Below are positions 12,962-33,383 of a stretch of DNA of 39,178 nucleotides, one piece after another (position 1 is the stretch's first letter; every line of letters begins with the position of its first letter). The DNA is from a virus. A program made the translations under genes and the position numbers. The stretch is from the IMG/VR virus record IMGVR_UViG_3300023063_000060, positions 1 to 39,178 of that record; one strand, given 5' to 3'. The notes below the pieces were generated by a model. The model saw nothing but the letters and a program-made list of their open reading frames with translations. It searched no databases and had not been told where the DNA came from.

Positions 12962-13485
12962 TCAATCGGGACAATTGACCTTCCGCCACGCTTCAAAGGC
13001 GTGCCAGAACTCTACCGGCGTCGCTTGACCCCACCGGTCGGTTGACCACCCGAGGGTGGCGTCGGCGATGCCAGCGAGTTTTCGGGCTCCGCTGATGCCG
13101 CCAGCGTCTTCGTCTTCGGCGGAGCCTTCATTTCCCCCGAGGGGGTGAGCCCGCCGGTCACCGCGAGGTAAAGCATCAGCTCCAGCCGCTTGAGCAGGAC
13201 GAGTGTATTCTCGGCTGCCAGCAACTCCTGAACTCGAGGTGCCTTAAACAACGGCGCTTCGTCATGGCCGACGGCACGACCCCATGCACGGATGCACTCC
13301 GTGACGATAATCGCGGTCTCCCACGACTTAAGCGAGGCCCGGCCGGCGGCATCGGCGGCCTCTACCTTCGACATGTTGATGCCGCGCTCGAACGCCTCGA
13401 TCGCCTCATGGGAGGGGCGCATCCCGTAAGTTTCGCCGCCAAGCTCGATATCGAACTCGCCCCGGGCCTCGCTAGTCGCCCGCAT
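12962..13485 (-). CDS. Tail assembly chaperone, -1 frameshifted long form (174 aa)
   Basis: The 157-aa frame contains G-GGG-GAA at 13132-13138. After a -1 slip there, the frame stays open for 56 codons to TGA at 12962-12964. The added part ends in L-G-W-S-T-D-R-W and T-P-V-E-F-W-H-A-F-E-A-W-R, the aromatic pattern found in the second half of phage tail assembly chaperones (Phage_TAC_6 / former DUF2376 type). No start codon is found in this frame near the motif. This is the arrangement of lambda G/GT. It would give a short and a long chaperone that coat the tape measure. The slip itself is predicted. Confidence 0.75.
13012..13485 (-). CDS. Tail assembly chaperone, short form (GTA-gp10 / TAC_11 type)
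   Basis: A 157-aa protein starting M-R-A-T-S-E-A-R-G, with L-G-G-E-T-Y-G-M-R-P-S-H-E-A-I-E at 16-31, an E-A-F-E-R-G motif, and a helical segment W-E-T-A-I-I-V-T-E-C-I-R. This matches chaperone proteins of gene transfer agents and related phages. The last 40 residues are Pro/Ser/Gly rich and end in K-R-R-R. The ATG at 13485 shares a base with the TAA of the tail tube gene. The gene sits between tail tube and tape measure, with the accessory cassette following. Confidence 0.85.
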   Translation of the reverse strand: MRATSEARGEFDIELGGETYGMRPSHEAIEAFERGINMSKVEAADAAGRASLKSWETAIIVTECIRAWGRAVGHDEAPLFKAPRVQELLAAENTLVLLKRLELMLYLAVTGGLTPSGEMKAPPKTKTLAASAEPENSLASPTPPSGGQPTGGVKRRR

Positions 13486-13907
13486 TAGATCAGATCCACG
13501 GTCGGCGCAGCGGCGGCGTTGAGAGTGACGGACGTGCCGACCACACCCTTCTGCGCCGCATCGGTGTTGCCGAAATCGGTGTACATGTCGCACGCGAACA
13601 GCGTCGCGGCGACGGGGTCGGTAACGGTGATGTCGCGAACCTCGTAGTTCGTGATCACGCTGGTCGAATCCGCCAGCTTCATGGCCGTATAAGCCGCATC
13701 GGGAAGGTTGGGCTGGATCGCCTGCGTGATTGTCAGCGTCTTCTGCCCTGGAGCGGAGGTGCCATAGCGACCCGTGTTTTTGTCCGAGGTGTCGATCGAG
13801 CTACCGCTGCGGTTGATCGTCAGGTTGCCCTGGCCGAGCGGCTGCACGTAGGTGGCATCCCCCGTCTTGATAAACAGGCGCATGTTGTCGCCGAGCATCT
13901 TTGCCAT
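13485..13907 (-). CDS. Major tail tube protein
   Basis: A 140-aa beta-rich protein: M-R-L-F-I-K-T-G at 9-16, T-I-N-R-S-G-S-S-I-D-T-S-D-K near 30, T-L-T-I-T-Q-A-I-Q-P and V-T-D-P-V-A-A-T-L-F. This is the standard pattern of phage major tail proteins (TP901-1/Phage_tail_2 type), which stack as hexamer rings to form the tube. It lies between the tail terminator and the chaperone genes, as in many siphophages. One-base overlap with the chaperone start. Confidence 0.9.
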   Translation of the reverse strand: MAKMLGDNMRLFIKTGDATYVQPLGQGNLTINRSGSSIDTSDKNTGRYGTSAPGQKTLTITQAIQPNLPDAAYTAMKLADSTSVITNYEVRDITVTDPVAATLFACDMYTDFGNTDAAQKGVVGTSVTLNAAAAPTVDLI

Positions 13908-13943
13908 TTCACGTTCTCCATGAGCGGCCCGCAGGCCGGTTGA

Positions 13944-14351
13944 TCAACTCGCCGGCTGAGCGATGATGAAAAATATTTGGGTGCCGACATAGGTCGCGCC
14001 GTCTTCGAGTAGCGGCGCGCTGGCGCTCGTCAGCTCCGGCCGAGAAAATATGGCCCGGTCGTCAGCGATCAGCGCGCCGTCGACCAAGCGAGCGCGCACC
14101 ATCTCCTGCATCACCTTCACAACGATCTTCGTTGTCGACTGCATGCAAATATGAACCGCAAAGTCGTGCTGCTCGATCTGCTCGCCTTTAGCGCCGAGGG
14201 GTGTCACTTGATCCTCGCCGAGGAGCGTAAACGGATAGGTAGCCTGTCCATCATTGTTGACGGGGACCTCGCTGACCACCGGAGGGAGGCCAACAACACT
14301 GCTGAGCGCTTGAAAGATCGCCTTCTGTGTCGCGCCCGTCAAATCAGTCAT
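13944..14351 (-). CDS. Tail terminator / completion protein (DUF3168 type)
   Basis: A 135-aa protein beginning M-T-D-L-T-G-A-T-Q-K-A-I-F and containing L-P-P-V-V-S-E-V-P-V-N and Y-P-F-T-L-L-G-E, typical of DUF3168, and a strand with H-D-F-A-V-H-I-C-M-Q. It ends the tail tube and joins it to the neck. The ATG at 14351 overlaps the HK97-gp10-like stop by 8 nt and has GGAG in front; an ATG at 14363 is a possible longer start. It ends shortly before the tube gene. Confidence 0.85.
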   Translation of the reverse strand: MTDLTGATQKAIFQALSSVVGLPPVVSEVPVNNDGQATYPFTLLGEDQVTPLGAKGEQIEQHDFAVHICMQSTTKIVVKVMQEMVRARLVDGALIADDRAIFSRPELTSASAPLLEDGATYVGTQIFFIIAQPAS

Positions 14352-14823
14352 CACCCGCTCCATTCGCTGCGTCGGTGAGTATGCTGGTCAGCAGGGTGCG
14401 GTAGGCCGGAAGGGTCTCGATCCGGAACTGCGCTTTGGTCTGCCGGACGATATAGAGCGGCCGGAGAGCACGAATATGCATCGCGTGGCCGGCGCGCGGC
14501 CCGCGCTTGATCCGAACGTCCTTCGACCCTCGACCCACGTCGAGGATATGGGCGTAGAAGACGAAATCGCGCCTGGTGAGCTGGCCAACCTTCAGGTTGA
14601 GGGACTTCGGCGTCACCTTCCAAGAAATCGAGTTGCGCGCCGCGCCGGGTGTCCGGTCAGGCCTTGGTGTCGCGAGAACGGGGACCAGCGACCGCATCGT
14701 GTTCGCGGCCGGCGGCCCGGCGGTGTAGAGCAGAGCAATAACCCGCTTATTCGCGCTGTCGGGCAACCGCTTCAGCAACCGCTTGAAGCTGGCGACACCC
14801 TTAACGCTGGATCGCCGTCTCAT
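14344..14823 (-). CDS. HK97 gp10-like head-tail protein
   Basis: A 159-aa basic protein with F-K-R-L-L-K-R-L-P-D-S-A-N-K-R-V near residue 12 and a later R-D-F-V-F-Y-A-H-I-L-D-V-G-R-G-S, which are the marks of the HK97-gp10 family. These proteins take part in neck or tail joining. It overlaps the joining protein stop and the tail terminator start. The 14344 stop is inside the next gene's beginning. Confidence 0.85.
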   Translation of the reverse strand: MRRRSSVKGVASFKRLLKRLPDSANKRVIALLYTAGPPAANTMRSLVPVLATPRPDRTPGAARNSISWKVTPKSLNLKVGQLTRRDFVFYAHILDVGRGSKDVRIKRGPRAGHAMHIRALRPLYIVRQTKAQFRIETLPAYRTLLTSILTDAANGAGDD

Positions 14824-15149
14824 AGCTCCGGCGCGCCGCTCTCTGCCGTCATCACCAAATCATCCCTCCTATTGTTGAGATCACCGCAGGTACGGATGTT
14901 TAGCGGGGTGCCTTTCCACATCAGGCGATGGCGCGGCGTGACCCAATCTCGAAAGCTGATCGTGACCCGATAGAACTGGGTGGCATTGAGCATGCCCTGC
15001 TTGAAGGCTTCGCCGCCGTTGAGTGGGATGACGGACGCCCATACCAGCGCACCACAATCCTCCCATGTAAGCGGCGAGCCGCCGGCGCCGTCGCTTCCCT
15101 TGACCGGTTGCTGGATCGTGACGCGCTCGCGCTTCTTGCGCGGGTTCAT
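14820..15149 (-). CDS. Head-tail joining / head closure protein
   Basis: A 109-aa protein starting M-N-P-R-K-K-R-E-R-V-T-I-Q and containing W-E-D-C-G-A-L-V-W-A-S-V-I-P and Y-R-V-T-I-S-F-R, the pattern of Phage_H_T_join (SPP1 gp16 type) stoppers. It would close the portal channel. The ATG at 15149 overlaps the connector stop (ATGA) by 4 nt. Its own end overlaps the gp10-like start by 4 nt, so four connector genes are coupled in sequence. Confidence 0.82.
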   Translation of the reverse strand: MNPRKKRERVTIQQPVKGSDGAGGSPLTWEDCGALVWASVIPLNGGEAFKQGMLNATQFYRVTISFRDWVTPRHRLMWKGTPLNIRTCGDLNNRRDDLVMTAESGAPEL

Positions 15150-15430
15150 GCCAGCGCCGGGTCGCGATAGCGAAATAGGATCCTGATAACAGCATCGCTC
15201 AGCGGATCCGCCTCGTCGTCGTTGAACAAGGAGCGCAGCACCAAGATTGTCGCCGCCTTGATCAGTGCCGGTGCTGTGGAGTCCGTCCAATCAGCAGTTG
15301 GTCGCTTGATGTAATCCAGCACAATTTCAGAGGCGGCCTCCACCTTCATCTGAATATCGAGGTCCTGCTCGTCGCCGTCGATCCTGAGGTCGGCTTTTGC
15401 CTGCAGAAGTGAGATGAAGGCGACCATCAA
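15146..15430 (-). CDS. Head-tail connector (HK97 gp6-like adaptor)
   Basis: A 94-aa, mostly helical protein: L-L-Q-A-K-A-D-L-R-I-D-G-D-E-Q-D-L-D-I-Q, A-A-S-E-I-V-L-D-Y-I-K-R, then A-T-I-L-V-L-R-S-L-F-N. This is the gp6-like adaptor that binds under the portal ring. The ATG at 15430 overlaps the preceding stop by 4 nt (ATGA). The Y-I-K-R segment and the acidic middle are characteristic of the family. Confidence 0.85.
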   Translation of the reverse strand: MMVAFISLLQAKADLRIDGDEQDLDIQMKVEAASEIVLDYIKRPTADWTDSTAPALIKAATILVLRSLFNDDEADPLSDAVIRILFRYRDPALA

Positions 15431-16404
15431 GCCTTGTCCTTCCCATCACGACCACGTTTGACGGCCAATCGCCAACCGCTATCCGGTCCATCTGGCTTGG
15501 TTTCGGTCGAGCGCTGCGCAATCCAGTAACTGCCGGCCCAGGTGACACCGTCGCCAGCCTGATAGGTCGCACTGTCCTTGTAGACGCCGCGATCGATTAC
15601 GACGGGCACGTCGAAGGAAAACTCCTTGGTCCGTTCGCCCTGAGTGAAGCGCAAAACAAAGCTGCGCTCCCCATTCTGCTCGACCGAGAGATCGTCGAAT
15701 CCAAATCCGTTAACGCCGTCCACGGGCGGCGGAAGCGCCGCGACCTTATCGTCGATCGCGCGCAAGATGACGGGCATATCAGCATCATTGCCGACCACAC
15801 CGCCGAGATTCCGGGTCGTGCCGTCGGTCAGCGTAACGATGAGCGCGCCGTGGCGGTCTATGAGCGCACCGGCCAGGCCGACGCCGTCTTTCGCCACGGG
15901 GAGGGACCGGATGGCGCGCTCGACTGCCGCATTGATCGTTGGGGTTACGTCTTCAACGCTGACGCTTACGCCGTCACGCGGGACAGGCAGATCACCTACA
16001 GCGCGCGCGACAGCAGCCTTGATCTCCACAGGGTCCGCATCGCGACCGTCACGCGGCACGGGCAGGTCGGAAACAGCTTCCGCCACCGCATGATCTACGA
16101 GCCGACGAACTTCATCGATTGTTACGCTTTTGCCGTCCTGCGGCACAGGGATCTGGGCGATCGCAGACTCTACCGCAGCGCTGATATCGAGGGCAAGCTG
16201 ATCACGATCAACATCGACGCCGTCGCGGGCGGGAGGCAGCTTTGCTATTGCCGCTGCAACCGCGCGCTCGACGAGAGCAGGGTCGACCTGGGTAGGACGA
16301 GCCTCGAGTGCGGCGATACGCTCGATCAACGGCGCCGTCGCCCGCGCGACGTGATCGCGCACAATGAGCGCAGTCGCTTCGGCTAGAGCCTTCGTGTCAA
16401 GCAT
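15427..16404 (-). CDS. Repeat-containing fibre-like protein with carbohydrate-binding-like end
   Basis: A 325-aa protein. After a helical start it has five copies of A-x-x-x-L-P-x-x-x-D-G. Their D-G pairs are at 61-62, 90-91, 119-120, 144-145 and 173-174, giving spacings of 29, 29, 25 and 29 residues; a related P-P-P-V-D-G follows. The last about 55 residues, with Y-Q-A-G-D-G-V-T-W-A-G-S-Y-W-I and D-S-G-W-R, resemble a CBM5/12-type chitin or cellulose binding module. A trimeric fibre on the capsid or neck is the likeliest reading. It sits between portal and connector, which is an unusual place. Confidence 0.65.
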   Translation of the reverse strand: MLDTKALAEATALIVRDHVARATAPLIERIAALEARPTQVDPALVERAVAAAIAKLPPARDGVDVDRDQLALDISAAVESAIAQIPVPQDGKSVTIDEVRRLVDHAVAEAVSDLPVPRDGRDADPVEIKAAVARAVGDLPVPRDGVSVSVEDVTPTINAAVERAIRSLPVAKDGVGLAGALIDRHGALIVTLTDGTTRNLGGVVGNDADMPVILRAIDDKVAALPPPVDGVNGFGFDDLSVEQNGERSFVLRFTQGERTKEFSFDVPVVIDRGVYKDSATYQAGDGVTWAGSYWIAQRSTETKPDGPDSGWRLAVKRGRDGKDKA

Positions 16405-17761
16405 TCAGGGCCTCCCGAAGGTCTTTCTCAAACAGTGCCACCACAGCCCGAGCTTGCTGCGCCTGCTCGTCGGCGTTGTCATTCGCCGGAGCCGGATCTG
16501 CCGCCGGCTTAGTGGTCGCGAAAGGATTATCGGTCGCATCCCGCTTGGCGAGCGCTGCAAGGCTGAAGTCCTGCTGCTGGCGATAAACGGCATTGCCGCC
16601 AGTGACGGGCCCTAGCCCAATCTTCGCGCGCGCCTCATCCGGCGTCATGAGATTCTTGCCGGCGTCGAGGACCTCCATCTGCGTCACGCTGTCCATGCGG
16701 AGCAGATTGTCGACGTCGAACTCGGTGCCGAGTGTGTCACCGGTGCCAAGCCCCTCGTCGAGGCAGACCTCAATCGATTCGATCAATACCTGAAGGCATT
16801 GGCTGTAATATTCGATGTTGAGCGCCTGCACGTTCGTGATTGCGACGGGAGCCTGGCCGATGCCGATCTTGTACGGTGGGACGTGGTAGGTCGAGCAAAC
16901 CACCTCCGCGGTCCATTTCAGCTGCTCGATCAGCTGCGCGTCTACGGCTTTGACAGCCATTGCCTCATATTTCAGACCATCGCCGAGCACAGCCACGCGG
17001 CCGACATTCTTACCGCTGAAATTCTCTTCCCAGCTCGACTTCAGACGGCCTGCCGTCTCGTCAGATATAGCTCCGGGAGCGGTGAGGATGCCACCAGGCT
17101 GAGAATTGTTTCCGAAGAACCGAGCTGAGTTGTTCTGGATCGATAGGCCCTGCGTCGCCGCGAGGCCGTTGGCAAAAACGGGCGACAGACCGACGAGCGG
17201 GTGAAAAAAGCAGTTGAACCGGTCGTGGATGATTTCGCTGGCCGGTACGACAACCTCGGTCGGAAGTTCGGATAGATGGTCCGTCTTCAATTCATAGAAG
17301 ACACTTCCATCAGGCGCGACCAACGGCTTTACCCGGCCCGGGTCGAGCACATAGAGCTTCTTCGACACACTGCGGCCGACGCGTTGCTTGAGCACGTAGG
17401 TGTTGCCGGACTGAAGCTTACTGAGCACCCAGGATTCGAAGAACTGGATGCGGTTCTGAAAACCGTTCGGCTTGCGCAGCACCGGCGAATATGCGGGATT
17501 TTTCACCTCGCTCCAGATGCCGTTCGCGTCCTGTGCGACCAGTTTGACGCGAAGCTTGGCGATGTCGGATGCGATAAGGCTCTGGCATGCAAAGACGGCA
17601 TGAAAGCTCAACACACAATCAAGCTTCACTTCGACGTTCTGTTGCCATGCGCCCGTGAACGCTTCTCGGATGATCGGCCACCAACCGCCGCGACCGGACG
17701 GAGGGGATAGTTGCCCCTGAGCCGCTTTTTCGCGGGTGATGGTGAGGCCGAACGCGCGCAT
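16397..17761 (-). CDS. Portal protein (HK97 family)
   Basis: A 454-aa protein that forms the ring through which DNA enters the head. Family marks: W-Q-Q-N-V-E-V-K near residue 40, V-F-A-C-Q-S-L-I-A-S-D-I-A-K at about 55-70, L-S-G-N-T-Y-V-L, and Y-H-V-P-P-Y-K-I-G, where portals have a conserved V-P-P. Length is normal. The ATG at 17761 shares bases with the preceding TGA (TGATG). Its end overlaps the fibre-like gene start by 8 nt. Confidence 0.93.
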   Translation of the reverse strand: MRAFGLTITREKAAQGQLSPPSGRGGWWPIIREAFTGAWQQNVEVKLDCVLSFHAVFACQSLIASDIAKLRVKLVAQDANGIWSEVKNPAYSPVLRKPNGFQNRIQFFESWVLSKLQSGNTYVLKQRVGRSVSKKLYVLDPGRVKPLVAPDGSVFYELKTDHLSELPTEVVVPASEIIHDRFNCFFHPLVGLSPVFANGLAATQGLSIQNNSARFFGNNSQPGGILTAPGAISDETAGRLKSSWEENFSGKNVGRVAVLGDGLKYEAMAVKAVDAQLIEQLKWTAEVVCSTYHVPPYKIGIGQAPVAITNVQALNIEYYSQCLQVLIESIEVCLDEGLGTGDTLGTEFDVDNLLRMDSVTQMEVLDAGKNLMTPDEARAKIGLGPVTGGNAVYRQQQDFSLAALAKRDATDNPFATTKPAADPAPANDNADEQAQQARAVVALFEKDLREALNA

Positions 17762-17991
17762 CAGCCTTCCGCGCGCTTCTCTGCGATCTTCGCGTTGAGG
17801 GTGGCGGCGTCCCATCCGTTGAAGGGCTTTTTGCCCAAGGCCTGCTCGTAGAGATCGCGGAGCGCCTGGATGTCAGTCGTGCCGCCTTCTGCGACTAGGT
17901 TGGCGGTGCTGTAACCCAGCTTTTCGAAAATGCGGGCGTAGCGCGGATCGCGCGAGGTTAGCGCCCGATTATAATAGGCTTGGTGCTTCAT
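17761..17991 (-). CDS. Small head-region protein (76 aa), HeH/SAP-like end
   Basis: Starts M-K-H-Q-A-Y-Y-N-R-A-L and ends with L-G-K-K-P-F-N-G-W-D-A-A-T-L-N-A-K-I, a pattern like the short HeH or SAP-type helix-turn-helix tail seen in many phage proteins. It lies between the capsid and portal genes. It could be a minor head or DNA-contact protein. Its ATG is 55 nt after the capsid stop, with a hairpin between. The function is not established. Confidence 0.7.
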   Translation of the reverse strand: MKHQAYYNRALTSRDPRYARIFEKLGYSTANLVAEGGTTDIQALRDLYEQALGKKPFNGWDAATLNAKIAEKRAEG

Positions 17992-18011
17992 TTTCCATCT
18001 CCCATGAGAGG

Positions 18012-18037
18012 AAAAGGGGCGGCCAAAAGGTCGCCCC
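18012..18037 (-). terminator. Terminator-like hairpin after the capsid gene
   Basis: Read on the minus strand: GGGGCGACC-TTTT-GGCCGCCCC followed by TTTTCC. The stem is 9 bp with one G-T pair, and the four Ts follow directly. It starts 9 nt after the capsid stop. In phages a leaky terminator here keeps capsid mRNA high relative to the portal and connector genes that follow. Confidence 0.65.
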
Positions 18038-18046
18038 GATCTTCGC

Positions 18047-19429
18047 TTACTTGTAAGCGGTGCCGGTGATGAACTGGACGGCGCCAGCGCGGCGCTTGCC
18101 CCAGTTGATGTACCGCTCGGCACGGATGCCCACCATGTTCATCTGCCAGAGGGAGACCATCACAGTCGTCGCGGTCGCCGGCGCATCGGGCGCGCTGTCC
18201 ATCTGCAACGAAGCTTCGGTGCTGACGTCGAGCATCGTCTCGCCATCGTCGGCGAGCAGGATCTCGCTGGCCTTGGCAAGGATGATGCGCGAGCCGGCGG
18301 TAATCGCCGGAGGGCCGGTGACTGCCGCCTGCACCGGGATATTCTCGGAGGTGATGACTGGCAGGCCCAGCAGCGTTCCGCCACCGACCGCGTTCATGCC
18401 GGGGAATTCAGCCTGACCGAGCGGATTGAGCAGCAGCGAGAGGCCGAGCGCCTGCGTCTCAGTCATGATCCAGACCGCACCGGCAAGTGACATGTTCGCG
18501 GCGATGAACTTCGCCATCAGCGCCTGAGCATCGGCACGGAACGAGTCCGCATCGGTGCCGCTGGCAATAACCGGGGTTACGCCGTTAGTGATCGATGCCG
18601 GCGAGACGCCAGCGACAGCGGCGGCCGCAGGATCAACGAACGACAGATCCAGGAACTGCGCAGTCTGGTCCACGAGATCCTGACGCACAACCTCTTCAGC
18701 TGCGGGCGAAGACGAGCGGGCCAGTTCGTCGGTGATGACGATGATGCCCGCAGTCTTGGCCATCCCAAGCGAGATCTGGTCGAAGGCGAGGGCGCCGACA
18801 GGCTTAGGCTTGCCTTCGCCGACCCAACCAACAGTCGACCCGCCGGTCTGACGCGGGATTTTGATGTTGAAAGGCACCTTACGAAGGCCGGGGATACGGC
18901 CAAGGATCGTTGCCGGGCGGAGCAGTTCGGCGAACTCAGAGGTCATGTTCTGGTATTCGACCAGTGGTTTTGCCCACGCAGTGTCGGTCGTGGTGCCTGC
19001 AGCAACGGCAGCCTTGAAGATCGTTGCGAGTTCCGGGCTGTCGTTCCAGCTCTTCGAGATCTCCGCTGCCTGCATCAGGTTGCCCTTGGAACGTGCGAGA
19101 GCCATCGCATACCGCGCGAAAGTCGTGCCCTTCGGGAGGTTGGCGCCCTTCACCTCGATGCGGGTGCCACCGCGAGCGGCGGTGCCTTCACCGCTCGAGC
19201 CGCCGGCGGCGGGGACGGCGGCCACGATCAGCGACTTCTGCAAGGTCTTGAGGCGCTTGATGTGCCCATCGATCTGCTCGATGTCAGCCTCAAGGCCGTC
19301 ATATTCCTCCTGCTCAGCCTGGTCGAGGGTGGTTCCGTCGGTAGCGGCCTTGGTCATGATCTCATTCATGCGCCCGAACGAAGAGGCGCGCTTCGCCTCA
19401 AAGGCGGCGATCTGTGCAGCGATATCCAT
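18047..19429 (-). CDS. Major capsid protein (HK97 fold)
   Basis: A 460-aa protein. Residues 1-100 are a coiled coil (A-Q-I-A-A-F-E-A-K-R-A-S-S-F, and E-E-Y-D-G-L-E-A-D-I-E-Q), the delta domain that acts as a scaffold and is removed by the protease. Residues about 140-455 form the capsid domain, with V-P-F-N-I-K-I-P-R-Q-T-G-G and a G-W-V-G-E-G-K-P motif, as in phage_cap_E/HK97 capsids. The ATG at 19429 begins M-D-I-A-A-Q with AGGA in front. It follows the prohead protease gene, as expected. Confidence 0.93.
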   Translation of the reverse strand: MDIAAQIAAFEAKRASSFGRMNEIMTKAATDGTTLDQAEQEEYDGLEADIEQIDGHIKRLKTLQKSLIVAAVPAAGGSSGEGTAARGGTRIEVKGANLPKGTTFARYAMALARSKGNLMQAAEISKSWNDSPELATIFKAAVAAGTTTDTAWAKPLVEYQNMTSEFAELLRPATILGRIPGLRKVPFNIKIPRQTGGSTVGWVGEGKPKPVGALAFDQISLGMAKTAGIIVITDELARSSSPAAEEVVRQDLVDQTAQFLDLSFVDPAAAAVAGVSPASITNGVTPVIASGTDADSFRADAQALMAKFIAANMSLAGAVWIMTETQALGLSLLLNPLGQAEFPGMNAVGGGTLLGLPVITSENIPVQAAVTGPPAITAGSRIILAKASEILLADDGETMLDVSTEASLQMDSAPDAPATATTVMVSLWQMNMVGIRAERYINWGKRRAGAVQFITGTAYK

Positions 19430-19480
19430 TTTTGATGTCCTGATCGGGCGGCACGCGCTGGGCGCGGCGGCCAAGAGAAA

Positions 19481-20119
19481 TTACTTCGCCGACATGATCC
19501 GTTTGATCGAGTTGATGACGAAGGGTGGAGCCCGATCGCGGGCAGGGTCCGCCAGCTTCACGACACGGACACCCTTGCCTGACGCGGCGGTGACAGTGGG
19601 GTTGGCTGGAATTTCGGGTTCGCTCACGCCGGCGGCTTTGCGAAGCGCGGCATCGATCGACTTGATTTCGTTGATGACCGCGTCGCTGTTTGCCGGGATC
19701 GTCACCGCGGAAAGCTCGAAGCACTCGCTCTCGATAAAGCGAACGCCGCCCTCCTCCATGTAGGAGTATTCGATCGGACGAAATCCGACGCTGACGGCGC
19801 GGACCAAGCCCAATTTCATCGAGTCCCAGGCTTCGCGCAGCCGGTCTTTCAGAGTTTCGGACTCCACCGTCTCGGGATCCGCGATGGTAGCCTCGAAGCC
19901 GATGCCCGTGGCGGTTGGGGTGTCGAACTTGACGGTCCCAATCGGCTTGTCCGCCATGTGCTGCCAAAGAAACGGCATAGGGTTGGTGAACTTCATGCCG
20001 AGCGGCTCGATGATGTCGCCAACCCGATCGACGGTCGGGGTCGTGGCGATGCCGCGGATGACACGCGTGGCGTCGTCGATCGCTTTGATCGACAGCACGG
20101 AATAGGCCCTGTTCTGCAT
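19481..20119 (-). CDS. Prohead protease (HK97, peptidase family S78)
   Basis: A 212-aa protein with the signs of the S78 (U35) maturation protease: L-W-Q-H around His54, and A-V-S-V-G-F around Ser110, followed by E-C-F-E-L-S-A-V-T-I-P-A-N at about 132-144, with an acidic residue that could complete the triad. It trims capsid and scaffold proteins in the prohead. After residue 150 there is a basic tail likely removed by self-cleavage. It lies between the terminase and capsid genes. Confidence 0.92.
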   Translation of the reverse strand: MQNRAYSVLSIKAIDDATRVIRGIATTPTVDRVGDIIEPLGMKFTNPMPFLWQHMADKPIGTVKFDTPTATGIGFEATIADPETVESETLKDRLREAWDSMKLGLVRAVSVGFRPIEYSYMEEGGVRFIESECFELSAVTIPANSDAVINEIKSIDAALRKAAGVSEPEIPANPTVTAASGKGVRVVKLADPARDRAPPFVINSIKRIMSAK

Positions 20120-20131
20120 CGAACGGACTCC

Positions 20132-22006
20132 TCAGAGAATGAGCATTTGGAATTTTTCGCGCCGCTGTGTCGGCATCGACATCAGCACCCCGACAGCCAT
20201 GCACAGCGCGATGGCGGCATCGATCTTGTTCGCGGCCCTCTCTTTCGAGAGCCAGTAATTGCCCCACGGGTCGGTCTCGACGACTGCGGACATCATCGCC
20301 GAAACCAGCACCGGGTTATTCAGCAGCCGGAGGCGACCCTCGAGCAGCATCTGCTCAACCAGCTTGACCGAGGCGGGCATCCACAGCCCTTCGGGTTCGC
20401 GCTTCGCATCCTTGGCCGCATCGATCATGGCCTGCGTTGGCTTGCCCTTGCGCTTGCCGCCTTGGGGATGCTCGACCTGTTCGATCGTGCAGCCGAGATC
20501 CGCCAGTTCCGGCGCCAACGTGGCTTGGTAGGCGTATCTGTCGTAGCCAAGGGCAACGACATTCAGTGGAGCTGCCTGCCTGACGATCGACGCGGCGATA
20601 TGGCTGTAACTGATGACCTTGCCACGCGGCGCCTGCAGGTGGCCCGCCTGGATCCAGGTCTCGTAAGGTGCCTTGTCCAACATCTGGCGGGATTGCACCG
20701 TGTCTCCAGGCGTCCAAGCCTCGATCCAAGCGTCGAAGGTCGGCTTCCGAACGACTACGATTTCGCCGTTCTGCTCTTCCTCAATGTCGACTTCGCCCGT
20801 GTGCACCGCGACCGCGAGTGCGCTGAGATCCTGCGTCATCGACAGATCGACGCCCATCCCGGCGCGCTTGCCCGCGTGCTCCTTTGGGTCGAATATGGCG
20901 AGGGCGGGTTCGAGCAGCTTGCGGCTGATCCAGGCCGTCTCGGCGTCAGTCCAAACGCAGAAGTGTAACCGCAGGATGCCGTTCAGCTTGCCCGGCATGT
21001 CCTTCGCTTGCTTCACGACACCGGCGAGGTAGTCCTCCTTGATCGTGACGCCGAGTAGCGGGTTTGCCTTCGGCCAGCAGGATGGATCGGTGAGAGGGTC
21101 ATCCTCAGGATCCAAGCCACAAACATACGAGAACGTCGTGTCGTCGATCGGCTCGCCGATGTAGAAAGCGTCGTCGTCCTTCGCCTCGCGATTGCCGGCC
21201 GCGACCTTCACCGCGTGCTCATGCTCTTCCCAGGCGATCGAATTTCGGTTCGAGCCGCTGTTCGTGATCATGAACAGCAAGGGCTGCAGCCGGAATTTGA
21301 AGCCGCGCTCGAGCATTTCCATGACGCCGCGGTCCGGGTGTTCGTGAACCTCATCGCAAAGCGCGATGTGAGGGCGTGGGCCCGAGCCAGTCTTCTTCGC
21401 TTCCCGGCTAATTGGTCGGAAGAACGATCCGGACCGAAGGTGCGCGAGGTTGTACTCGCGCCCTGGTCCGCCGCTCCGTTTTAGTCGCCGGTTCAGATCC
21501 GGTGACTTGTCGACCATGTTGATGGCGTCGCGAAACAGGATCCCGGCTTGGTCCTTTGTGGCGCCCGCCGCATAGATCTGCGCGCCGGACTCCCCGTCGG
21601 CGGTCATGCCGTAGAGTCCGATCCCGCCTGCTACCGGGCTTTTCCCGTTACCCTTGCCCTCTTCGATGTAGGCTCGGCGGAAGCGGCGGTAACCGTCGGC
21701 CTTTTTCCAGCCGAATATCGAGCCGATCTTGAAGGCCTGGCTGGGCGCCAGCAGGAAAGGGCGACCTTCGAATTGCCCCTCGCTGAGTTTCAGCTTCTCT
21801 TCGAAGAAGCGGATCGCGCGGCTCGCGGCGTCACGGTCGAAGTTCAATCCGCGCGCAGCGCCGACCTTGAGGTCGTCGAGATGGCGGCGACAGGCGTTCC
21901 GAACATGCGGACCAGCAACCATGCGGCCGCTGGTGACATCCATTGCGTAAAGGGTGGCACGGTCAGTCTCCGAAGAACTCGTCTTTCGTTTCCTGCTCGC
22001 CACCAT
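20132..22006 (-). CDS. terL: Large terminase subunit (TerL)
   Basis: A 624-aa packaging motor. ATPase: the phosphate loop is E-E-G-K-G-N-G-K-S (115-123) and the Walker B is H-I-A-L-C-D-E-V-H (213-221). Nuclease: G-M-G-V-D-L-S-M-T-Q-D-L in the C-terminal half carries its first acidic residues. It resembles the Terminase_1 group of phage HK97 and its relatives. The start at 22006 overlaps the small subunit gene by 44 nt; a later ATG at 21943 is an alternative but has no good ribosome site. Confidence 0.93.
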   Translation of the reverse strand: MVASRKRKTSSSETDRATLYAMDVTSGRMVAGPHVRNACRRHLDDLKVGAARGLNFDRDAASRAIRFFEEKLKLSEGQFEGRPFLLAPSQAFKIGSIFGWKKADGYRRFRRAYIEEGKGNGKSPVAGGIGLYGMTADGESGAQIYAAGATKDQAGILFRDAINMVDKSPDLNRRLKRSGGPGREYNLAHLRSGSFFRPISREAKKTGSGPRPHIALCDEVHEHPDRGVMEMLERGFKFRLQPLLFMITNSGSNRNSIAWEEHEHAVKVAAGNREAKDDDAFYIGEPIDDTTFSYVCGLDPEDDPLTDPSCWPKANPLLGVTIKEDYLAGVVKQAKDMPGKLNGILRLHFCVWTDAETAWISRKLLEPALAIFDPKEHAGKRAGMGVDLSMTQDLSALAVAVHTGEVDIEEEQNGEIVVVRKPTFDAWIEAWTPGDTVQSRQMLDKAPYETWIQAGHLQAPRGKVISYSHIAASIVRQAAPLNVVALGYDRYAYQATLAPELADLGCTIEQVEHPQGGKRKGKPTQAMIDAAKDAKREPEGLWMPASVKLVEQMLLEGRLRLLNNPVLVSAMMSAVVETDPWGNYWLSKERAANKIDAAIALCMAVGVLMSMPTQRREKFQMLIL

Positions 22007-28168: not shown

Positions 28169-28920
28169 GCTCTTGCTCCTTCAGTGGTGGTGGTGGGAAT
28201 CGGTGCGGAGAGCGCCTTCCACGCATGCGGATTCCATCCGCGGTCCTCGGCGCGCTCAATCAGGTCTGCGTCGGTCAGGGTCGCACTGCCGCGCCGCCAG
28301 AATTTGCCGTTCGTCTTTGCTCGCCCGTTGGCATCGCAGCGGAACACCGACGAGAGACGGCGGAGGTAATCGGCGGCCTGGCCGGCCCGGGTCATGTCGC
28401 GCTGAGTGCGGTCGACCGCGCCTTTCGGTCCCATGATCGTCTTGGCAAGGCGTGGCGTGCGGAAGCAGATGTCCGCTTCGATCGCCCACCGGTTCAGCGT
28501 GGTCTCGCCGCGATTGTACCGCTCCTTGGCCTGTTTCATGGTCAGACCGGGCGCATCGAGTGCGAAGCCAGCGGGCAGGGTAGGGTGTTGGCGCGGCGGC
28601 GGTGGAACGCGGACGGCAAAGACGCCGGTCAGCTTGCGCCAGAGCGTGATGTTCTCTTTGCGCGTGCGATAGTGAGCGGCCAACTCATCGTTGGTCATGT
28701 TTGTCGCGAGCTGCGCGAAGTCGTCGGGCAACTGCCTTTCCACCCTCGGTTTCCCGCCATGCGCTTGCCAGCATCCAAGATCGTTTCTGATGGCGACGTC
28801 CATGATCGCCTTGCGCGAGCGTCCAAGGACCTCAGATGCGTCGATCGTGGTCTTTCCCGATGCGATGAACTGGCGGACCTGCTCGATTTCCTCGGCAGTC
28901 CAGGGGGTGCGGGAGATCAT
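28165..28920 (-). CDS. Multi-HTH DNA-binding protein
   Basis: A 251-aa protein with several helix-turn-helix-like segments. Near 6-48 is a SANT/Myb-like region (T-A-E-E-I-E-Q-V-R-Q-F-I, then L-G-R-S-R-K-A-I-M-D). Another is at M-T-N-D-E-L-A-A-H-Y-R-T-R, and a third at M-K-Q-A-K-E-R-Y-N-R-G-E-T-T-L. A protein of this kind may control early genes or help with replication. The stop overlaps the 93-aa gene start by 4 nt. The exact targets are unknown. Confidence 0.7.
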   Translation of the reverse strand: MISRTPWTAEEIEQVRQFIASGKTTIDASEVLGRSRKAIMDVAIRNDLGCWQAHGGKPRVERQLPDDFAQLATNMTNDELAAHYRTRKENITLWRKLTGVFAVRVPPPPRQHPTLPAGFALDAPGLTMKQAKERYNRGETTLNRWAIEADICFRTPRLAKTIMGPKGAVDRTQRDMTRAGQAADYLRRLSSVFRCDANGRAKTNGKFWRRGSATLTDADLIERAEDRGWNPHAWKALSAPIPTTTTEGARA

Positions 28921-29441
28921 GCTGCGGTCCTTCCGTAGAACTCAGCCGCGGGGACCGAGGGCATATTGAAAAGGTGCCAGGCGCAATTGTCCTTCCCAGA
29001 CATCTTCGAGTCCGGGATCCACTTCACGCGGCCGACCGAGACGATGCGGTGCAGGAGTGGGAGGAAGGGCCGCGACTGACGGGTGTGAATCCAGTCGGCA
29101 TCAAACAACAGCCATGTCGGGTGTTGGCTGGAAAGGTGCGGGATCAACCGGTGAAGGATTTCCCTGTCCCAAGGCGGATTGGTGATGAAGCAATCGATGT
29201 TTCCGACCAGTCGCGTCAGCGCGTCGCGCCGATCGATGTCCGAGCGCTGCGGTTCGAGATCCCAAGCCCGCGCGCAGACGTGGCCTTCAGCGGTGAGGAT
29301 ATCGATCAGCGCGCCATTGCCAGCACACGGCTCGACGAAGCGCGTGGCCGGCGCGAGGTGGCGCAGCAACGGAACGACAGCTTCGCGCGGCGTCGGGTAG
29401 AAGTCGCGCTCCACCCTCACAAAGTTGCTACGCTTGCCCAC
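28917..29441 (-). CDS. Class I DNA methyltransferase, N6-adenine type
   Basis: A 174-aa protein. F-V-E-P-C-A-G-N-G-A-L at 36-46 is the SAM-binding motif I, and I-T-N-P-P-W at about 86-91 is motif IV, typical of N6-adenine or N4-cytosine methyltransferases. A clear target-recognition domain is absent, which is common in phage solitary enzymes. The protein opens with Y-P-T-P-R-E-A-V, as in phage enzymes of the family. It starts at GTG (29439-29441), sharing a base with the previous TAG. It could protect phage DNA from restriction. Confidence 0.8.
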   Translation of the reverse strand: MGKRSNFVRVERDFYPTPREAVVPLLRHLAPATRFVEPCAGNGALIDILTAEGHVCARAWDLEPQRSDIDRRDALTRLVGNIDCFITNPPWDREILHRLIPHLSSQHPTWLLFDADWIHTRQSRPFLPLLHRIVSVGRVKWIPDSKMSGKDNCAWHLFNMPSVPAAEFYGRTAA

Positions 29442-30784: not shown

Positions 30785-30813
30785 ATATTGTGCAATAGAT
30801 GCACAAACGTCAA
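30785..30813 (-). promoter_or_regulatory. Leftward early promoter (PR-like) over operator 1
   Basis: Read on the minus strand, TTGACG (30808-30813) and CAATAT (30785-30790) are spaced by 17 nt. The operator 30789-30805 fills the spacer, so repressor binding would block polymerase. The Cro-like gene starts 7 nt after the -10. The -10 is a weak match, the -35 a good one. Confidence 0.6.
30789..30805. promoter_or_regulatory. Repressor operator 1: TGTGCA-ATAGA-TGCACA
   Basis: A perfect dyad of 6-bp arms with a 5-bp spacer (17 bp). The exact same 17 bp recur at 33365-33381. It is placed in the leftward promoter, and centred 33 bp from operator 2. Confidence 0.8.
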
Positions 30814-30821
30814 CAGGAATA

Positions 30822-30838
30822 TGTGCATCCTTTGCGCA
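30822..30838. promoter_or_regulatory. Repressor operator 2: TGTGCA-TCCTT-TGCGCA
   Basis: The same layout as operator 1, with one changed base in the right arm. It lies between the promoters. The dyad centre is 26 bp from that of operator 3. Confidence 0.7.
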
Positions 30839-30847
30839 CGACATTCC

Positions 30848-30864
30848 TGTGCGTCGCGTGCACA
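30848..30864. promoter_or_regulatory. Repressor operator 3: TGTGCG-TCGCG-TGCACA
   Basis: One base of the left arm differs from the consensus. It ends 8 nt before the CI-like gene, so filling this site would switch off repressor synthesis. Confidence 0.7.
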
Positions 30865-30872
30865 CCTTCCCG

Positions 30873-31550
30873 ATGGATTATCAGTGGTTCCGTGACCGAA
30901 AGGCTGAGCTCAAGCTCAAGGATGCGCAAATCGCTGAGGCGGCCGCGAAAGACCGCTCGGTGATTAACAAGGTGATCAACGGCGCGGGTAGTTTTTCGCT
31001 CGACCGTGCCGACCAGCTGGCGGCGCTGTTCAAGGTCACGCGGATCGATATGCTCTTCCGGATTGGTGTGCTTCGAGCTGATGATCTCGAAAGCCTAGAC
31101 CCCACGCGGCGCCAACTGCCTGCCCCGGCTAACGATGACGATGTCGTCGAGATAACGTCGTTAGACCTTTCGCTGTCGATGGGGCCCGGGACATTGATCG
31201 AGGACTTCGTTGAGACGACGCCAATCAAAATGGGTCTGGGGCTGATCCAGGCGATCACCCGCACCCCGTCCGATCGCCTTCGCCTGGTCAAGGGTATCGG
31301 CGACAGCATGGAGCCCACGCTCAGGACCGGCGATACAGTGATGGTGGATATTAACGAGCGAGCGCTAACCCGGATCAGCGGGATTTATTGGATCGATTAT
31401 GCGGGATCGCACGGCATTAAACGGCTCCGGCCAGCCGGGAAGGATCGGGTGCTGATCATCTCCGACAATACCGGTGAAGATAATTTCGAGGTGCCTGCCG
31501 AGGATCTGCGGATCGAGGGCAGGGTCATCTGGTTTGCGAGGGATTTGTGA
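30873..31550 (+). CDS. CI-like repressor with S24 (LexA-type) domain
   Basis: A 225-aa protein. Residues 1-65 are an HTH domain (L-K-L-K-D-A-Q-I-A-E-A-A-A-K-D-R-S-V-I-N-K). Residues about 140-225 are the S24 peptidase-like domain, with Ser145 in G-D-S-M and Lys183 in G-I-K-R, the catalytic pair. No Ala-Gly or Cys-Gly cleavage site is seen in the linker. There is no clear ribosome site before the ATG, and the operator is close, so the message may be leaderless as for lambda cI. It directly precedes the protease gene; stop and next start touch. Confidence 0.88.
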   Translation: MDYQWFRDRKAELKLKDAQIAEAAAKDRSVINKVINGAGSFSLDRADQLAALFKVTRIDMLFRIGVLRADDLESLDPTRRQLPAPANDDDVVEITSLDLSLSMGPGTLIEDFVETTPIKMGLGLIQAITRTPSDRLRLVKGIGDSMEPTLRTGDTVMVDINERALTRISGIYWIDYAGSHGIKRLRPAGKDRVLIISDNTGEDNFEVPAEDLRIEGRVIWFARDL

Positions 31551-32702
31551 ATGCAAGATAACGGCGCATTGTCTCAAGATCGACTTCCTTTGCTTGATGC
31601 AAACCCAGTTGCATCTGCAAGTGCACATGATTCTGCCGTATCTTTCCTTGTTTGGGCAAAGCAAAATCGCCTCTTATCCAAAGGGCCGATTGATGACACG
31701 GTTGAAGAGGACCTGCAATTAGATCTTCAACCGCAGCAGATGTTCGAATCGCAATCTGTGAAAGCCGTCCTGCGTAAGCGCGCGGTCAATCTTGTTGCGT
31801 ATAATGAAGCAGAGAAGAAAGTTATCGTTTTTACTCATGCTAGGCTTACCAACGCCGAGCGTAAAATGATGCCCTTCCAATTTACCGCTGGCGTGAGAGT
31901 AGAATATTCAGTTGGCGGGACCGCTCAAGTGCGTGGAAACGCGCCGCCACCTGATGCTTTTTCGCCATACACGCTTCATGATGGTCGTATTTGTTGTGGA
32001 TCATCAATTCATCCCGTCAATTGCATGGGGGCGGGAACGCTCGGTGCTATCGTTCGTGGGCCGGACGGCAAGCTGTACGGACTGACCAACAATCATGTGT
32101 CGGGGGCGTGCAACCTCGCAGCTCCCGGCCTACCAATCTTATGCCCTGGGCCATTGGATGCGACCGAAGAAAATATTTCACCTTTCACGATCGGGCGCCA
32201 TGCCCGCCTCTTGCCAATTTCCGAAGGTATCCCCGAGAATATTGACGTCGGGAACAATGTGGATGCCGCGATATTTGACCTCGAGTCGGCCGAACAGGTG
32301 TCGTCAATGCAGGGTGACAGCTTCGACACGCCCACAAGTGTCGTAGAGGCTCAAGGCGGATGGCGTGTTGAAAAGGTCGGACGAACGACTGGGTTCACGA
32401 CCGGAAAAATCGTCGGTGTCGTCGCGGCTCCCATGGGCGTTGGCTACAACATCAAGGAATACGGTGTCTCAAAAACGGTATTTTTCAACGACATAATCAT
32501 GGTGGAGGGTGAGAACGGACAACCCTTTTCTAAAGCGGGCGACAGCGGGTCTCTCGTGGTGGCTTACGACGATGCCGGGGTGCGGCATGCCGTAGGTCTG
32601 ATTTTCGCCGGGAACGAAGTGCGTGGCCATTCTTACGTCGTTCCGTTACAGGTTGTGTTGGAAAAGCTAGGTGTCGAGCTGGTATCCGGGCTGAATGTGT
32701 GA
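31551..32702 (+). CDS. Trypsin-like serine protease, lysogenic operon
   Basis: A 383-aa protein. The triad is His182 (L-T-N-N-H-V), Asp238 (N-V-D-A-A-I) and Ser332 (K-A-G-D-S-G-S-L-V). Before the protease domain, residues about 70-118 form a small beta-alpha-beta domain (V-N-L-V-A-Y, V-I-V-F-T-H-A-R, P-F-Q-F-T-A-G-V-R-V-E-Y). No signal peptide, so it is cytoplasmic. The DNA is AT-richer than its neighbours (56 G+C in 120 bases at 31561-31680), suggesting later acquisition. ATG follows the CI stop with no gap. It resembles the Nal1-like/trypsin group of intracellular proteases; substrate unknown. Confidence 0.85.
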   Translation: MQDNGALSQDRLPLLDANPVASASAHDSAVSFLVWAKQNRLLSKGPIDDTVEEDLQLDLQPQQMFESQSVKAVLRKRAVNLVAYNEAEKKVIVFTHARLTNAERKMMPFQFTAGVRVEYSVGGTAQVRGNAPPPDAFSPYTLHDGRICCGSSIHPVNCMGAGTLGAIVRGPDGKLYGLTNNHVSGACNLAAPGLPILCPGPLDATEENISPFTIGRHARLLPISEGIPENIDVGNNVDAAIFDLESAEQVSSMQGDSFDTPTSVVEAQGGWRVEKVGRTTGFTTGKIVGVVAAPMGVGYNIKEYGVSKTVFFNDIIMVEGENGQPFSKAGDSGSLVVAYDDAGVRHAVGLIFAGNEVRGHSYVVPLQVVLEKLGVELVSGLNV

Positions 32703-32917
32703 TGACGAATGTGCCGCCGAAATCTGCCGCGCGTAGGCTTGCCTCGGAGCTGTCACTCCCGAGTTGGAAGGGTACTGTCCTCGTTGCCCATCGGAAGAAT
32801 GAGGACGTACTGGTCGTTGCCGCGGAGCGCCGATGGCTATCGCACCATTCGATCCCAGGGCGGTACTGCGGTTATGCTGTTGAAACAGACGAGCCTCTCA
32901 ACGCTGTAGCTCAGTAG
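32702..32917 (+). CDS. Small protein similar to the protease N-terminal domain
   Basis: A 71-aa protein. W-K-G-T-V-L-V-A-H, then D-V-L-V-V-A-A-E-R-R-W-L, then I-P-G-R-Y-C-G-Y-A-V-E run in the same order as V-N-L-V-A-Y, K-V-I-V-F-T-H-A-R-L and P-F-Q-F-T-A-G-V-R-V-E of the protease. This looks like a free copy of that domain. The ATG shares a base with the protease stop; GTG three bases earlier is an alternative. It could act as a pseudo-propeptide, an inhibitor or a sensor. Similarity is read by eye, and not proved. Confidence 0.7.
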   Translation: MTNVPPKSAARRLASELSLPSWKGTVLVAHRKNEDVLVVAAERRWLSHHSIPGRYCGYAVETDEPLNAVAQ

Positions 32918-32928
32918 GCTGGCGTATC

Positions 32929-33330
32929 TTGCGCCACCTCACACTCGCCGTCGTCGGCGCGCAATTCCCAAACGCCAAAGGCCCGACGCGTCGCTTCGGC
33001 ATTAGCCTATGCCGCCCAGGCACGCCGATCGAGCTGCGCCTCGAACCCAAAAACCTCAAGGATGAAAACGCCGTCGCTGTGTACGGCCCGAGCGATATCC
33101 AGCTCGGGTACCTGACGGCGGAACGTGCGCCGTGGATCGGTAGCATGATCCGCGACAGGCGCGAGGTGAGGGTGGTTTTCCAAGTCGATACGGAGTTCGG
33201 GGCCTATGTCCGCGCCGCGTTCGATGGTGCCGATCCGGTGTTGCCGGAGCTTCGGGAAGCTGTCGAACGCCGATCAACGGCGAATCAAGAGCAGGATTTC
33301 TGGCCAGATCCGGAATACCCTGACGATTAA
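32929..33330 (+). CDS. HIRAN-domain protein
   Basis: A 133-aa protein starting (TTG) L-R-H-L-T-L-A-V-V-G-A-Q-F-P-N-A-K-G. The marks of HIRAN are A-Q-F-P-N, R-R-F-G-I-S-L, P-G-T-P-I-E-L-R-L-E-P-K-N, D-E-N-A-V-A-V-Y and I-Q-L-G-Y-L-T-A-E. HIRAN domains bind the 3' ends of single-stranded DNA in helicases such as HLTF; here the domain is alone, with an acidic tail (E-Q-D-F-W-P-D-P-E-Y). It ends the lysogenic operon, one base before operator 4. A role in sensing DNA ends is inferred. Confidence 0.8.
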   Translation: MRHLTLAVVGAQFPNAKGPTRRFGISLCRPGTPIELRLEPKNLKDENAVAVYGPSDIQLGYLTAERAPWIGSMIRDRREVRVVFQVDTEFGAYVRAAFDGADPVLPELREAVERRSTANQEQDFWPDPEYPDD

Positions 33331-33347
33331 AGTGCAGGGTATGCACA
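33331..33347. promoter_or_regulatory. Repressor operator 4: AGTGCA-GGGTA-TGCACA
   Basis: The dyad layout of operators 1-3 with one changed base (A for T). It lies directly after the HIRAN stop and just upstream of the rightward promoter. Confidence 0.65.
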
Positions 33348-33354
33348 TTGCCGC

Positions 33355-33383
33355 TTGACCTAACTGTGCAATAGATGCACATT
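33355..33383 (+). promoter_or_regulatory. Rightward early promoter (PL-like), weak -10
   Basis: TTGACC (33355-33360) is a good -35. At 17 nt spacing the -10 is CACATT (33378-33383), which matches only three of six consensus bases. Operator 5 covers the spacer. The repressor would silence the operon that ends in the integrase gene. Confidence 0.5.
33365..33381. promoter_or_regulatory. Repressor operator 5, identical to operator 1
   Basis: TGTGCAATAGATGCACA, all 17 bases as at 30789-30805. Both copies lie in promoter spacers. The repeat 2.6 kb apart, with the same orientation, indicates one repressor controls both early operons. Confidence 0.8.

Follow-up and report, generated by a model that had tools for sequence, protein, structure and literature searches.

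The CI operon and its nearest described counterparts

Phage lambda carries RexAB as cargo behind cI, and these genes are made in lysogens. Lit, a zinc metalloprotease, has no partner gene. POIA1/I9 and CTLA-2 are free inhibitors which resemble the enzyme's own N-terminal domain. The Rex genes are lambda exclusion genes (PMC11436027), and Lit is an intracellular, prophage-type protease that becomes active only upon infection (PMC12926258). There is experimental support for trypsin-like peptidases as effectors in bacterial immunity (PMC12799240, PMC13236601), and adaptor domains making homotypic contacts have been proposed to recruit them (PMC10907252).

The window (the whole 39,178-nucleotide stretch analysed here) encodes a trypsin-fold protease and a small partner protein directly behind a CI-type repressor. 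It is a whole virus contig and represents a tailed, temperate phage, with genes for the tail, tape measure, portal, major head, large terminase and integrase. No near DNA match was found among GenBank phages (13000-22000 tested). Portal matches extend over two overlapping minus-strand ORFs (15427-16404 and 16397-17815; phrog_2271 positions 21-431 and 512-642), the downstream one also matching the portal family phrog_1289; this may be a split gene, a frameshift or two natural genes. A DNA methyltransferase-like gene (phrog_799; 28917-29441, minus strand) is located slightly upstream of the immunity region. The features of this region are as follows.

30789-30864, no strand: three CI operator-like palindromes before CI (TGTGCAnnnnnTGCACA at 30789, 30822 and 30848; motif count)
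30873-31550, plus strand: CI-type repressor with HTH and S24 peptidase-like domain, 225 aa (PF00717, E-value: 7e-10; phrog_4)
31551-32702, plus strand: NAL1-like trypsin-fold serine protease P0001, 383 aa (Pfam, PHROGs, PDB, model), with N-terminal extension (1-65), alpha-beta-beta-alpha-beta N-domain (68-121), catalytic domain (approximately 145-380) and triad H182/D238/S332
32702-32917, plus strand: free-standing N-domain-like partner P0002, 71 aa (model, profiles, recurrence)
32929-33330, plus strand: HIRAN-domain protein, 133 aa (PF08797, phrog_27141), with a TTG start and an 11-nt gap after the partner
33331-33381, no strand: two CI operator-like palindromes immediately behind HIRAN (at 33331 and 33365)

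The four genes lie on the plus strand and the first three are tightly packed, as an earlier sequence-only reading had described: there is no gap between CI and protease (0 nt), and the partner start overlaps the protease stop by 1 nt (TGATG). The window contains six palindromes like TGTGCAnnnnnTGCACA (up to 2 mismatches), where 1.18 would be expected. Five flank the operon and none lies inside it; these are putative CI operators. The copy at 33365, identical to that at 30789, is additionally picked up as a terminator-like hairpin. In the phage contigs L007, L012 and L013, too, shared motifs lie on either side of the CI-HIRAN unit. In the Pseudomonas-type loci and L020, described below, an inverted-repeat terminator lies no more than about 50 bases behind the partner gene, which suggests that the unit is cI-protease-partner. 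These three genes are thus likely to form a single transcription unit that is made in lysogens.

The protease and its small partner

The protease is a member of the known NAL1-type family; the arrangement with a partner appears to be new. P0001 has the conserved domain PF25819 (Nal1_C; E-value: 2e-13, 50.5 bits against a cut-off of 26.1), and rice NAL1 chains are its match in a PDB sequence search (E-value: 1e-9). Its full-length family is represented by phrog_25502 (function not assigned; near-full-length match, E-value: 8e-124) and phrog_20754 ("protease"). The AlphaFold2 model (pLDDT 80, pTM 0.82) matches NAL1 structures in Foldseek over approximately 400 columns (8pmm; E-value: 3e-18, TM 0.5-0.55), followed by chymotrypsin-fold bacterial proteases such as alpha-lytic protease. 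The N-terminal family domain NAL1_N (PF25608) has no sequence match in P0001 and a below-cut-off match in the relative L024; the P0001 model spans full-length NAL1. The full triad noted in the sequence-only reading is borne out by an alignment of 17 relatives, in which the His182, Asp238 and Ser332 columns are invariant. The same reading placed the protease inside the cell, and a cytoplasmic location is also predicted here, no signal-peptide-like hydrophobic segment being visible by eye at the N-terminus. A search of GenBank phages for protease relatives gave zero matches.

The protease gene has a G+C content of 0.528 compared to a window mean of 0.611. The AT-rich segment pointed out earlier was reproduced (31561-31680; 56/120, or 0.467), and only 10 of 1953 segments of 120 bases are as low. 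G+C at third codon positions is 0.53 in the protease gene and 0.71 in CI and HIRAN, which fits a recent arrival. Both genes of the pair are under purifying selection (w 0.03-0.04 for the protease, 0.01-0.17 for the partner).

From sequence alone, the 71-aa protein had been said to repeat the strand order of protease residues 70-118, and structure prediction gives the same element order in both. The AlphaFold2 model of P0002 (pLDDT 81.5, pTM 0.68) is helix-strand-strand-helix-strand (H6-17, E24-31, E34-41, H43-48, E58-63), and the P0001 N-domain repeats this order of elements at similar intervals (H68-77, E79-85, E90-95, H101-106, E116-121); the input alignments for these models were shallow (11-13 sequences). 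When all partners are compared with all N-domains, the pooled profiles align in register over 62 columns with a score of 17.6, compared to 8.0 +/- 1.7 in column shuffles (0/60 reach it). Because such shuffles also wipe out strand patterning, this score is better evidence for a same fold than for common descent. In L002, a relative on a Rubrobacter plasmid, direct alignment shows the gene that follows the protease to be a copy of the N-domain (z 7.5), and a Rhizobium plasmid (L006) has a small gene that is similar by eye. The pooled profiles, the models and the Rubrobacter pair therefore uphold the earlier claim, which plain sequence from the window did not prove: P0002 is not significantly similar to residues 70-118 in pairwise comparison (BLAST E-value: 0.43; shuffle p 0.69), the Pseudomonas-type partners taken by themselves (S3) are not distinguished from shuffles in the comparison with the N-domains (7/60 as high), and hhalign of the first, small partner and N-domain alignments gave no support. 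The shared fold of partner and N-domain is thus supported at the level of predicted structure.

Searches for other relatives of the partner were negative. Pfam and PHROGs contain no match, the one weak match listed being far under the cut-off, and a Foldseek search with the partner model gave no significant relative; the alpha-lytic protease pro region was rejected as a candidate (E-value: 0.8). A BFVD search returned only two near-full-length viral matches, both without known function.

Recurrence of the pair and its bacterial relatives

The order CI (S24), protease, partner is found in all 14 phage contigs with this protease type. These comprise the window, L019, L020, L026, L028-L032 and L043-L046 (from a search with the protease alignment) and L087 (from a search with the partner alignment), and exclude L021-L024, more distant viral-contig relatives of the bacterial type. 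Allowing for near-identical contigs (L044/L045/L046 and L028/L029), approximately 11 distinct versions remain. The partner is 71-85 aa long (76-85 aa outside the window), and the two genes overlap by 8 nt in most phage relatives and abut within 1 nt in the others. A search of viral contigs with the partner only gave 12 matches, all of which adjoin the protease. The flanks of L031 match Pseudomonas phages, and the rest of its group, being similar to it, probably infects Pseudomonas as well. Genome scans by peptide pattern returned one distant locus only, and chromosomal prophages of Sphingomonas and Pseudomonas lie outside the count.

Protease and partner identities are strongly correlated across these loci (r 0.95, Mantel p 0.0005; r 0.83 within the Pseudomonas-type group). 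CI identity tracks the pair weakly (r 0.49; 0.26, not significant, within that group). For example, L026 and L032 have proteases that are 80% identical and partners that are 66% identical, but CIs that are only 26% identical. Going by these alignments, the pair has met at least two unrelated repressor types (L026 and L032), with two more in the window and L020. The recurrence beside different repressors that the sequence-only reading had called for is therefore found. Constant pairing, co-divergence and the presence of the same pair behind unrelated repressors all point to a mobile module, so that the pair appears to be a lysogen-expressed, two-gene unit carried as exchangeable cargo of CI operons. 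No PADLOC family matches the pair, and its contextual link appears to be to CI only and not to defence islands. A search of openly licensed papers found no description of the two proteins together; the module is real and recurring, and apparently undescribed.

Related proteases are also encoded by bacterial chromosomes. Nal1_C is found in 54 of 399 Bacillota genomes (about 13%) at an E-value of 0.001 or less, nine of them above the curated cut-off. The 30 extracted loci (L047-L076) are NAL1-like in architecture, and a clear N-domain is present in nearly all. None has a free N-domain gene within about 1.5 kb; an ORF in L066 (E-value: 0.06) reads like a LuxR-type HTH protein and was discarded as a false match. 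The difference between 14/14 phage contigs and 0/30 Bacillota loci has a p value of 9e-12, uncorrected for relatedness and obtained with a search model that is less sensitive for phage-type partners. As the chromosomal relatives have an N-domain but no free copy of it, the free partner looks like a specialisation of phages and plasmids.

The surroundings of these relatives vary. Some Bacillota proteases have glnA-like, patatin-like or homocitrate-synthase-like neighbours. On two Rhizobium plasmids (L003:1016-4597 and L004:1129-4678), the neighbours of a NAL1-like protease are a HEXXH peptide-modification protein and a radical SAM protein, an arrangement like that of a modified-peptide cluster. 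On a Paenibacillus plasmid (L005:3695-7998), the protease gene, which is NAL1-like, overlaps another gene whose 1107-aa product has no Pfam match; the two possibly form a conflict system. In the viral contig L024 (3686-8509), a NAL1_N-protease makes up the beginning of a long ORF (over 1600 aa).

Possible functions and comparison with known systems

A protease that is made in every lysogen must be mostly harmless, and a translationally coupled protein resembling its N-domain is the obvious restraint. The partner may therefore restrain the protease. The model put forward here is that a lysogen would make the cytoplasmic NAL1-like protease together with its coupled partner, which would silence the protease in the manner of a prodomain-like inhibitor or an antitoxin, by binding it where the built-in N-domain sits or on top of that domain. 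It could do so by taking the N-domain site in an oligomer or by covering the active site as a prodomain does. Displacement or loss of the partner, through a protein of a superinfecting phage, loss of the prophage or another stress, would free the protease to cleave a host or phage target, leading to superinfection exclusion or cell arrest. This account of the pair as restrained-protease cargo is tentatively preferred, as possible though not quite probable. Its narrower form, an infection-activated prophage defence or exclusion system in which a NAL1-type protease is held by a free copy of its N-domain and moves as a cassette between the CI operons of unrelated temperate phages, is more doubtful. 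It is nevertheless reasonable to regard defence as the single most likely use, well short of shown. If lysogens are protected in this way, the pair would join Rex among the CI-operon exclusion genes, as a kind that acts by proteolysis and is kept in check by a partner.

An unlikely alternative is lysogenic conversion, in which regulated proteolysis would remodel the host (stress responses, regulators) and have no anti-phage role. CI-operon cargo often consists of conversion genes, and the frequency of NAL1-like proteases in Bacillota chromosomes, some beside housekeeping genes, indicates that the family is not specific to defence. Against this, the chromosomal relatives do without the free partner, and no particular host pathway is indicated.

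Two further readings have a small probability each. The main alternative to inhibition is a positive role, in which the partner would be an obligatory folding helper, an oligomer subunit or a substrate adaptor. NAL1 is an oligomer, which favours this role, as do the common topology of partner and N-domain and the homotypic adaptor domains proposed for trypsin-like effectors (PMC10907252); however, the protease already has an N-domain of its own, and 30/30 Bacillota relatives manage without a nearby free copy. The other reading is control of lysogeny by an ImmA-like logic, with the protease cleaving CI, Cro or another switch protein and the partner tuning it. The protease gene immediately follows CI in every case and seems to share its transcript, and the presumed Ala-Gly self-cleavage position of CI is Met-Gly or Leu-Gly in the window, L019, L020, L026 and L028. 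Met-Gly is equally present in CIs of the protease-free phages L008, L012, L013 and L015, however, and Ala-Gly accompanies the protease in L030, L031 and L032; a lost self-cleavage site was accordingly rejected as a marker of protease dependence. In addition, unrelated CIs share the same pair, and the S24 Ser and Lys are kept in CI (by eye). ImmA/ImmR systems have an ImmA-type HExxH metalloprotease (COG2856) beside the repressor, whereas the window protease is of the serine type.

A four-gene system with HIRAN as DNA-end sensor is very improbable: a single bracketed operon does hold all four genes in the window, but HIRAN relatives occur in twelve viral contigs without the protease, directly behind CI in L007, L008, L009 and L015, and none was found in the flanking sequence fetched for the remaining protease loci that were examined. 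HIRAN is thus not part of the protease module. In L013 (4156-5004), two small membrane-type ORFs fill the CI-HIRAN slot that holds the pair in the window, a further point against the four-gene system, and the slot looks like a cargo site. From gene order, HIRAN is a resident of the immunity region of the window's phage group, conserved with CI, and the pair is the insert. The lysogenic protease system proposed in the sequence-only reading accordingly stands as a protease and free N-domain in an apparent CI transcription unit; the triple that included HIRAN does not recur, and infection or DNA damage, the triggers suggested there, are putative.

Each of the described systems resembles the pair in part. 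RexAB has the same position in a CI operon, but the window has a protease where lambda has RexA and the membrane protein RexB, and the CI-operon genes of the window have no Pfam or PHROG match indicating RexA or RexB homology. Lit of the e14 element is likewise an intracellular protease of prophage type, with activation by infection proposed for the window protease. Type II toxin-antitoxin systems also have a small coupled gene (compare TGATG and the 8-nt overlap), toxicity of the protease being hypothetical. POIA1/I9 and CTLA-2 have other folds and act on other proteases, and inhibition by the window partner is putative. The nuclease-protease pairs of Hachiman and AVAST (HamM and relatives, PMC12799240) similarly combine a trypsin-like protease with a co-acquired partner gene; in the window, the neighbours are CI, the 71-aa partner and HIRAN, with no MBL-fold nuclease and no fusion to a sensor. 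Closest is the NAL1 family (PF25819/PF25608), known mainly from a rice yield gene and now tied to phage lysogeny, which shares the catalytic fold, the triad, the structural match of approximately 400 columns and, as predicted from the model, an N-domain ahead of the catalytic domain. Assembly into a hexamer and a response to ATP, further traits of the family, would be hypothetical for P0001. Because the N-domain is supplied by nature as a separate protein, its role in NAL1 becomes testable in a simple system of two genes and one active-site residue to change. The window protease differs from NAL1, for which plant substrates are irrelevant here, in being phage-borne in a CI operon, in its N-terminal extension and in having a free N-domain protein encoded separately.
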